Below are positions 10,572 through 12,128 of a DNA stretch of 38,763 bases, one piece after another. The stretch is from Nitrospirota bacterium (GTDB lineage Bacteria > Nitrospirota > Thermodesulfovibrionia > Thermodesulfovibrionales > UBA9159): assembly GCA_021790195.1 (NCBI GenBank), contig JAJYIF010000030.1, positions 1 through 38,763 on the forward strand, read 5' to 3'. The number at the start of each line of letters is the position of its first letter. Position 1 is the first letter of the stretch. The translations under genes were made by a program, and so were the position numbers. The notes under the pieces were generated by a model. The model made no database searches and was not told the origin of the DNA. It saw only the letters and a list, made by a program, of their open reading frames with translations.

Positions 10572-10639
10572 CACATACCCATCGCCGGTAGATAATCCAT
10601 AGACTAAAGACGTTTATTGTCCGGCTCTTTCTCAGACGA

Positions 10640-11323
10640 TTATTTCCGCTTTCCTGTCCTTGAAGTCACCTTCTTTGCCGTCTTAGTCCTGCGTCTCACG
10701 TCCTTGCCGGCGGCAGCTCTACCCGTTGTCTTAGCTTTGGCTTTCTTTTCATTTTTCTTCTTCAAGGTCTTACCCGCAGTTACGGTCTTCTTCGACTTCA
10801 TTTTTCGCACAGAGCGGATTTTGCCTGCTGAGTCGGCATTCTTCAATTTTCTCGTCTTTCGGGTCGCAGAGATCTTTCCTGCCTTCCCTTTCGGTTTTTC
10901 GGTCTTGATTGAAGTCCTCCCTTTAGCCTTCTTCAGGGTCCCCTTTTTCATCGTCTTTTCCTCTTTTGCGCCCCTTTTGTTTGATGCGGCCTTCTCCCCT
11001 TGTCTTTCCATGTGGCGGACGCCGTTATCTTCGAGGACACCGAGGATATCCTCTTCCCTGATAAGCGTAATCTTTTCGCCGTCGAGATCTATGTCACTTG
11101 CGGAATACTCTCCAAAATAGACGCGCTGTCCAGGCTGAAGGACGGTCGGCACGAACCTTTCTCCCTTCTTGCCTTTCTTAATCCTACCGGGACCAACCGC
11201 CTCCACAAGGCCTTCCGACTGTTTCTCCTTGGCGGACTCAGGAATTATAATGCCGCCGGAACTCTTCGCGGCAGACCCGCTTCTTGTAATTACCACCCAA
11301 TCCTGCAATGGCCTTAATTTCAT
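10640..11323 (-). CDS. GroES domain fused to a lysine-rich H1-like tail
   Basis: Residues 1-96 form a complete Cpn10 domain: MKLRPLQDWVVI, the mobile-loop region followed by GGIIIPESAKEKQSEG, VEAVGPG, a VLQPGQRVYFGEY strand and the terminal IREEDILGVLE. The remaining 131 residues are almost only Lys, Arg, Ala, Thr, Gly and Ser, with repeated KKxK and AKKT units like histone H1 or AlgP-type tails. This tail is strongly basic and probably unstructured, and should bind nucleic acid or other polyanions. No groEL is nearby. It may be a dedicated co-chaperonin variant tethered to DNA or RNA, or a nucleoid protein that reuses the GroES fold; both are inference. TTGGAGGTG precedes the ATG. Confidence 0.9.
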   Translation of the reverse strand: MKLRPLQDWVVITRSGSAAKSSGGIIIPESAKEKQSEGLVEAVGPGRIKKGKKGERFVPTVLQPGQRVYFGEYSASDIDLDGEKITLIREEDILGVLEDNGVRHMERQGEKAASNKRGAKEEKTMKKGTLKKAKGRTSIKTEKPKGKAGKISATRKTRKLKNADSAGKIRSVRKMKSKKTVTAGKTLKKKNEKKAKAKTTGRAAAGKDVRRRTKTAKKVTSRTGKRK

Positions 11324-11356
11324 AAGAACACCTCCAAAAAGGATGATTGATTATCC

Positions 11357-11362: not shown

Positions 11363-11537
11363 CTGAATGAGGCGCCCGTATTGGAAATAGCTGCACAGCC
11401 TCCGGCAACGTCGCAAGAAAGAAAGAGAGCGTGTTTCCTCGGACTTTATCGGAAGAGATGAAAAAAGTGTAGTTTCAAAGCTGTGAGTTTGCTAAAATTA
11501 AGGCGTTGAATATGTGTCTGTAGAAAGGAGCGGAATC

Positions 11538-12128
11538 ATGGCAGAAGTGAAAAGCGCCTTTGAGAAGGCCATGGAAAAGATGAAGAGCATAGAATCGCTG
11601 TCCTCGGAAGAAAAGGCTGAGATGAAAGACCGCGAAGAGATGAAGTCTCTGCTGGCGGTTTTTTTCAAGGGCCGGCTCAGCAGGGACGAGATTTGGCAGA
11701 GATTTAAGGGGATAAAGCCGTCTCTTCTGCGTGAGGCCCAGCAGAGCATCGCCGACTCACTGAGGCTCGGGACGTCGCAGGAAGAGTTCGTGCTGCGAAG
11801 AGACGGGATACTGGCCATAGAGGCCCTGAAGGAAAAGCGAAACCCCTCCGCAATAGAGAGCTTAATCAACGCTATGGAGAGACTGCGCAAGGAATACAGT
11901 CAGGCGAAGGAGCAGGCCGTACAGCAGCTAAGGGCCGCAATCGAGCAGAACCCGCAGCTCAGGATGCGGCCTGTGAGGACCCCGGACGGCCGGACGACAT
12001 ATCAGGCTGCCCTCTCAGTGGATGAGGCCCTGCAAACAAAGATGTCGGAGTTCCTGTCCGAGCACGAAAAAAGATATGGAGAGATTTTCGGTCAGGCCCT
12101 TGAGAAACTGAAAAGGGAGCTGAAGTAG
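11538..12128 (+). CDS. Hypothetical helical protein (196 aa)
   Basis: The protein is highly charged and helical, with long heptad-like stretches (FEKAMEKMKSIESLSSEEKAE, later AMERLRKEYSQAKEQAVQQLR). It has no Cys, signal peptide or membrane helix. I do not recognise a named domain. An ATG at 11538 follows AAAGGAGCGG with a good spacer; an upstream in-frame GTG has no support. It is transcribed divergently from the GroES-like gene across about 215 bp and converges on the two-CW gene. It might be a cytoplasmic coiled-coil or structural protein, but there is no direct clue. Confidence 0.7.
   Translation: MAEVKSAFEKAMEKMKSIESLSSEEKAEMKDREEMKSLLAVFFKGRLSRDEIWQRFKGIKPSLLREAQQSIADSLRLGTSQEEFVLRRDGILAIEALKEKRNPSAIESLINAMERLRKEYSQAKEQAVQQLRAAIEQNPQLRMRPVRTPDGRTTYQAALSVDEALQTKMSEFLSEHEKRYGEIFGQALEKLKRELK

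Follow-up and report, generated by a model that had tools for sequence, protein, structure and literature searches.

GroES is usually treated as a single, interchangeable lid. In Helicobacter pylori, the sole GroES of the genome, HspA, carries a His/Cys-rich, nickel-binding C-terminal extension that gives the protein a new function and that has been described as absent from bacteria other than Helicobacter (PMC4671568). As the C-terminal residue of GroES is flexible in the free ring (PMC5653362), an added tail is plausible at this end of the protein. Tails of a different composition are found in AlgP and PhaF of Pseudomonas, where they bind DNA and place granules (PMC9239181). Stand-alone groES genes are also already known, and one survey lists 435 of 5,253 groES genes, from 4,861 genomes, without a neighboring groEL (PMC5406781). 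Divergent caps with the GroES fold include gp31 of phage T4 and the chloroplast proteins Cpn20 and Cpn23. The latter two are present in a solved structure with the title CrClpP; rings of the GroES type can therefore accompany other machines.

Here we describe a groES paralogue in a 38,763-nt stretch of DNA from a Nitrospirota bacterium (contig JAJYIF010000030.1 of GCA_021790195.1), referred to as the window. Its product resembles canonical GroES/Cpn10 (PF00166) in its complete domain, its fold, the length of its mobile loop and a GGI(I)IP segment. It differs in having Trp rather than Arg at position 9, in the long roof hairpin of its subfamily, in its C-terminal tail and in lacking both an upstream CIRCE element and an adjacent groEL. 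Like HspA, it is a GroES to which a presumably functional extension has been added at the C terminus, but the extension is rich in Lys, Ala and Thr and the protein is the second GroES of its genome. Like AlgP and PhaF, it ends in a probably disordered tail that is rich in Lys and Ala and close to theirs in size and charge. The N-terminal modules are unrelated; those of AlgP and PhaF are helical or phasin, not co-chaperonin. The stand-alone genes of the survey are similar in lacking an adjacent groEL, and the portion consulted does not describe tails, Trp9 or this clade (PMC5406781). No GroES with a lysine-rich or histone-like tail, and no Trp9 clade, was found in the open literature searched, a body of work that leaves subscription papers largely outside.

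A complete GroES domain with a basic tail

The gene lies at 10640..11323 on the minus strand and is a complete open reading frame of 227 codons plus stop, supported by the list of open reading frames, by Pfam Cpn10 and by a profile of its own subfamily. It starts with ATG, and a Shine-Dalgarno sequence, GGAGG (11331..11335), is found 7 nt before this codon. The GroES domain is made up of residues 1 to 97 (11033..11323). Pfam Cpn10 matches residues 2 to 96 with an E value of 8.5e-24 and 83.9 bits against a cutoff of 21.1, and since positions 1 to 92 of the 93 in the profile are covered, the domain is complete. The protein falls under the cutoff of every NCBIfam GroES model, the best score being 85 bits against a cutoff of 120. 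Structure prediction with AlphaFold2, run on the monomer with an alignment of 22 sequences drawn from the window and related loci, a minority of the subfamily, gave a GroES core with pLDDT values of 85 to 96 over most of its length and 65 to 85 around the mobile loop. When this model was compared with solved structures using Foldseek, the top matches were GroES/Cpn10, and all 35 PDB matches at E ≤ 0.001 were GroES/Cpn10-type chains. These include gp31, a weak match with 15% identity, and Cpn20/23, which are tandem double domains, unlike the window protein.

Within the domain, the codon for Trp9, the signature residue of the subfamily, is found at 11297..11299. The mobile loop is made up of residues 16 to 33 (11225..11278) and contains the putative GroEL-binding segment GGIIIP at residues 23 to 28. 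The roof hairpin (residues 46 to 65; 11129..11188) is lysine-rich and longer than that of Escherichia coli GroES.

The domain is followed by a histone-H1-like tail of 130 residues (98 to 227; 10643..11032), of which 27.7% are Lys, 10.8% Arg, 11.5% Ala and 11.5% Thr. Lys and Arg together make up 38% and the net charge is +40. There are no aromatic residues and only one proline, and the tail lacks the regular KPAA repeats of AlgP (PMC9239181). It is predicted to be disordered, with pLDDT values of 50 to 57 per block from residue 101 on. A first-pass annotation had proposed a complete co-chaperonin domain joined to a Lys/Ala/Thr-rich, probably disordered tail, and these data agree with it on both points. 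Metal binding in the manner of HspA can be ruled out, as the tail contains a single His (0.8%) and no Cys.

Two further reading frames are found close to the gene. A 167-residue frame on the plus strand (10617-11120) is an antisense shadow of the groES paralogue and has no support. Upstream, and divergent from it, is a frame of 204 residues (11514-12128, plus strand) whose product is probably helical; it has no Pfam match and no counterpart in related loci.

Genomic context and regulation

The genome that contains the window is 3.3 Mb in size and 96% complete. It contains a single GroEL and a single canonical GroES, encoded side by side on another contig (C38:61134-63013), with a perfect CIRCE (0 mismatches) just upstream of the canonical groES. 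The window gene is therefore not the only GroES of its genome. Both traits of a canonical-type groES, an adjacent groEL and an upstream CIRCE, are absent from it; the former absence had already been noted in the first-pass annotation, and the groES-groEL pair whose existence it had left to be checked is the operon on C38. No CIRCE was found anywhere in the window, and no match to the sigma-70 consensus was found near the gene. Given a normal CIRCE-preceded operon elsewhere and only one GroEL, the window gene is a stand-alone second GroES.

The same arrangement is seen in related genomes. When CIRCE was scored at up to 3 mismatches within 300 nt upstream, 59 of 69 canonical genes had the element compared with 0 of 69 genes of the window's subfamily. 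A Shine-Dalgarno-like motif precedes 68 of 70 subfamily genes. Among the 30 carriers in the window's order, 29 have a canonical GroES and 29 have a GroEL match, which is single in nearly all of them (two genomes have an extra weak match and in one the match is split). The assembly of one genome, G165 (L126, L249; 98% complete), gave no match to GroEL or to canonical GroES and contains only the Trp9 type and a third GroES-like type discussed below; this is probably an assembly gap.

A Trp9 subfamily of GroES

A search profile was built from nine GroES domains of the window's type. In 30 of the 176 genomes of the window's order it retrieved a clearly separated group scoring 119 to 168 bits, compared with at most 108 bits for canonical GroES; the window protein scored 150 bits and the canonical GroES of its own genome 98 bits. 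The same profile yielded no further member over the class (230 genomes), while in a sample of the phylum 76 of 396 genomes had a match at E ≤ 1e-31. The collected set is made up of 70 distinct proteins, one per genome and including that of the window; 30 belong to the order and the other 40 do not. A tree of 175 proteins joins all 70 in a single clade (support 100/99) that excludes the canonical GroES of these genomes. Closest to the clade, with modest support (85/79), are GroES proteins of Bdellovibrionales. A phage or viral origin can be set aside, as GroES matches from viruses and phages are no more than 48% identical, with the exception of one partial match of the 43-residue type, and all of them lack a long H1-like tail. 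Four viral contigs (L320, L331, L332 and L333) encode short GroES-like proteins with PLHDW at position 9; their similarity to the clade is low, and this motif is probably convergent.

E. coli GroES served as the reference for residue numbering. Position 9 is Trp in 69 of the 70 members and Arg in every collected canonical GroES of Nitrospirota. Almost every member of the clade has Phe at E. coli position 54, and this residue may pack against Trp9. The roof hairpin, counted as the residues between conserved glycines, is 20 to 32 residues long in the subfamily versus 17 in E. coli GroES. Canonical Nitrospirota proteins (loci such as L136-L160 and L217-L241) mostly fall short of both, with 8 residues in 54 of 70 and 17 in the other 16, so that many genomes have two lids, one nearly roofless and the other with a large roof. 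In the 54 short proteins the roof hairpin is missing, and the main lid of these genomes may be open at the top; the canonical lid of the window genome has an ordinary roof. The mobile loop is 18 residues long in all 70 members, with G24 and P28 invariant and I27 present in 97%. Conservation of both its length and these residues argues that GroEL binding has been retained in the subfamily.

Composition and evolution of the tail

Tails are found in 36 of the 70 members, both inside and outside the window's order. They are 39 to 175 residues long and all are basic, while the other 34 proteins end at the domain. On the tree, the presence of a tail requires three changes, as a single gain and two losses could explain. 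All tail carriers branch from one fork, supported at 92/85, that also contains five tail-less members. In codon comparisons between close pairs, the dN/dS of the tail is about 0.1 to 0.5 and mostly 0.1 to 0.4, which indicates that the related tails are translated and kept; the window gene is in none of these pairs, having no relative close enough. In dN the tail exceeds the domain by a factor of about 1.3 to 9. By this codon-based measure the related tails are under purifying selection with a loose constraint on sequence. The first-pass annotation had named homologues that all lack the tail as the sign of a frameshift or assembly artefact. A search for the same domain pair found it in the 36 tailed members, and together with purifying selection this rules out a frameshift, an assembly artefact or a chance open frame.

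Some relatives have tandem repeats in the DNA that encodes the tail, such as the 15- and 72-bp units of L086; none was found in the tail of the window gene. A proline-hydrophobic motif about 20 residues past the domain occurs in 11 of 19 representative tails, compared with a mean of 0.9 to 1.3 in shuffled sequences, a comparison that is biased because the pattern was chosen after inspection of these very tails. As the motif is also absent from the window's own tail, a shared linker motif was set aside.

Proposed role

The fusion of GroES and tail that was first noted in the window is real and conserved, but it is not simply a GroES with a tail. It belongs to a distinct, phylum-wide subfamily of second GroES proteins that appears to be undescribed, and the tail, missing from about half of the collected members, is an accessory carried by part of this subfamily. 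Two functions had been offered for the fusion, namely delivery of chaperonin activity to the nucleoid or to RNA, and a nucleoid protein for which the GroES ring is the base. The former, taken to cover other polyanions as well, fits better, as the putative GroEL-binding loop has been kept.

The explanation that we favor as a whole, with a rough probability of 0.42, is that of a second co-chaperonin that caps the sole GroEL and is tethered by its tail to a polyanion. Judging from the fold, seven subunits would form a GroES-type ring, and this ring would bind the only GroEL of the genome through the conserved mobile loop, capping the chamber under an enlarged roof. Without the CIRCE of the heat-shock groESL operon, the lids may be swapped under other conditions. 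In the window's lineage each subunit would add a disordered polycationic tail, for a total of about +280 per ring, and these tails could hold the cap, with GroEL, on nucleoid DNA in the first instance or on RNA or polyphosphate in the second. Such tethering would be analogous to that in AlgP and PhaF, where an H1-like tail connects a non-DNA module with the nucleoid; HspA, as an extended GroES, is the other working analogy. Nucleic acid binding by the tail is suggested by the AlgP/PhaF precedent, and polyphosphate or RNA would suit both this precedent and the chemistry of the tail equally well. While the fold, the intact mobile loop, the single GroEL, the missing CIRCE and the conserved, basic and probably disordered tail follow from sequence or prediction, we infer that the subunits assemble into a ring, that the ring caps GroEL, that the lid is expressed separately and that the tail tethers it to a polyanion. 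Evidence against this explanation is that half of the collected subfamily is tail-less, so the core role of the subfamily needs no tail. The diversity of the tails in length and sequence (39 to 175 residues) is expected of a tether that acts by charge only, and also of a weakly constrained appendage, and the neighboring genes give no functional hint. The more specific form, in which a phylum-specific second lid that is not part of the CIRCE heat-shock regulon uses seven H1-like tails to hold the folding chamber of the sole GroEL on the nucleoid, is doubtful. If true, it would be a chromatin-tethered chaperonin and would mean localized protein folding in a bacterium.

Alternatively, the protein may be a specialized co-chaperonin that its tail directs to RNA, ribosomes or polyphosphate granules instead of the nucleoid, making it a stress or starvation lid concentrated at sites of aggregates or granules. 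AlgP, which has a tail of this kind, localizes to polyphosphate granules, and polycations and polyphosphate form condensates together (PMC9239181). The missing CIRCE would also suit such a lid, but nothing in the locus is tied to polyphosphate or RNA metabolism, and we regard this version as unlikely. It is quite improbable that the ring no longer serves GroEL and has become a nucleoid-associated scaffold for seven multivalent H1-like tails. The tails are strongly polycationic, the gene is unlinked to groEL and a normal GroES is present for folding, all of which favor a scaffold. Against this, conservation of the mobile loop and of its hydrophobic tripeptide matches that seen in canonical GroES, and the tail-less half of the clade points to selection on a function of the domain that is independent of the tail.

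The tail could also act within the chaperonin complex, in or around the GroEL chamber, where it would need no external partner and would tune charge, lid release or the handling of substrates. Lysine is abundant in roof and tail alike, and the proline-hydrophobic motif, although from a biased pattern, suggests a specific contact near the ring. We give this idea little credence, as the motif is missing from the window tail and as seven tails of up to 175 residues per ring would crowd the chamber if held inside. Lastly, the tail may be a nearly neutral, low-complexity appendage produced by codon-repeat slippage and without a selected function. Such an origin would account for the repeats of L086, the raised tail dN and the likely loss of tails, but it is very improbable given the low dN/dS of most pairs, the strongly basic character of all 36 tails inside and outside the order, and a window tail that is free of tandem repeats.

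The two lids kept by genomes with one chaperonin come from separate GroES branches and are distinguished by the roof, the signature residue and the control element upstream, and one group adds a polycationic tail. If the tethered second lid that we favor is correct, the choice of lid could set where and when GroEL works, and the subfamily would offer naturally matched rings with and without a tail on which to test this. Along with HspA, the protein would then be another example of a GroES that has gained a function through a C-terminal extension.

Additional observations on related loci

A conserved gene neighborhood was sought in 30 loci, and none was found beyond close relatives. In 8 of the 30 (L102, L107, L109, L110, L113, L116, L121 and L124) an MsrA/MsrB-like methionine sulfoxide reductase gene lies no more than about 3 kb from the tailed groES, with distance and strand varying between loci. 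More than ten genomes of the phylum encode a third, still more divergent GroES-like protein of about 118 residues (L247-L258; e.g., L247:3445-3909 on the minus strand and L254:2117-2506 on the plus strand). It is highly conserved, contains the pattern GDRVLI...SGLYLPxTVKEKEKV...GPGYxxHD and was not found in the window genome. In four tail-less members (L127-L130), a conserved small open reading frame (MDIEVTVGGEALSITVENPFHMD...) begins in another frame at the end of the GroES gene, to which it is possibly translationally coupled.
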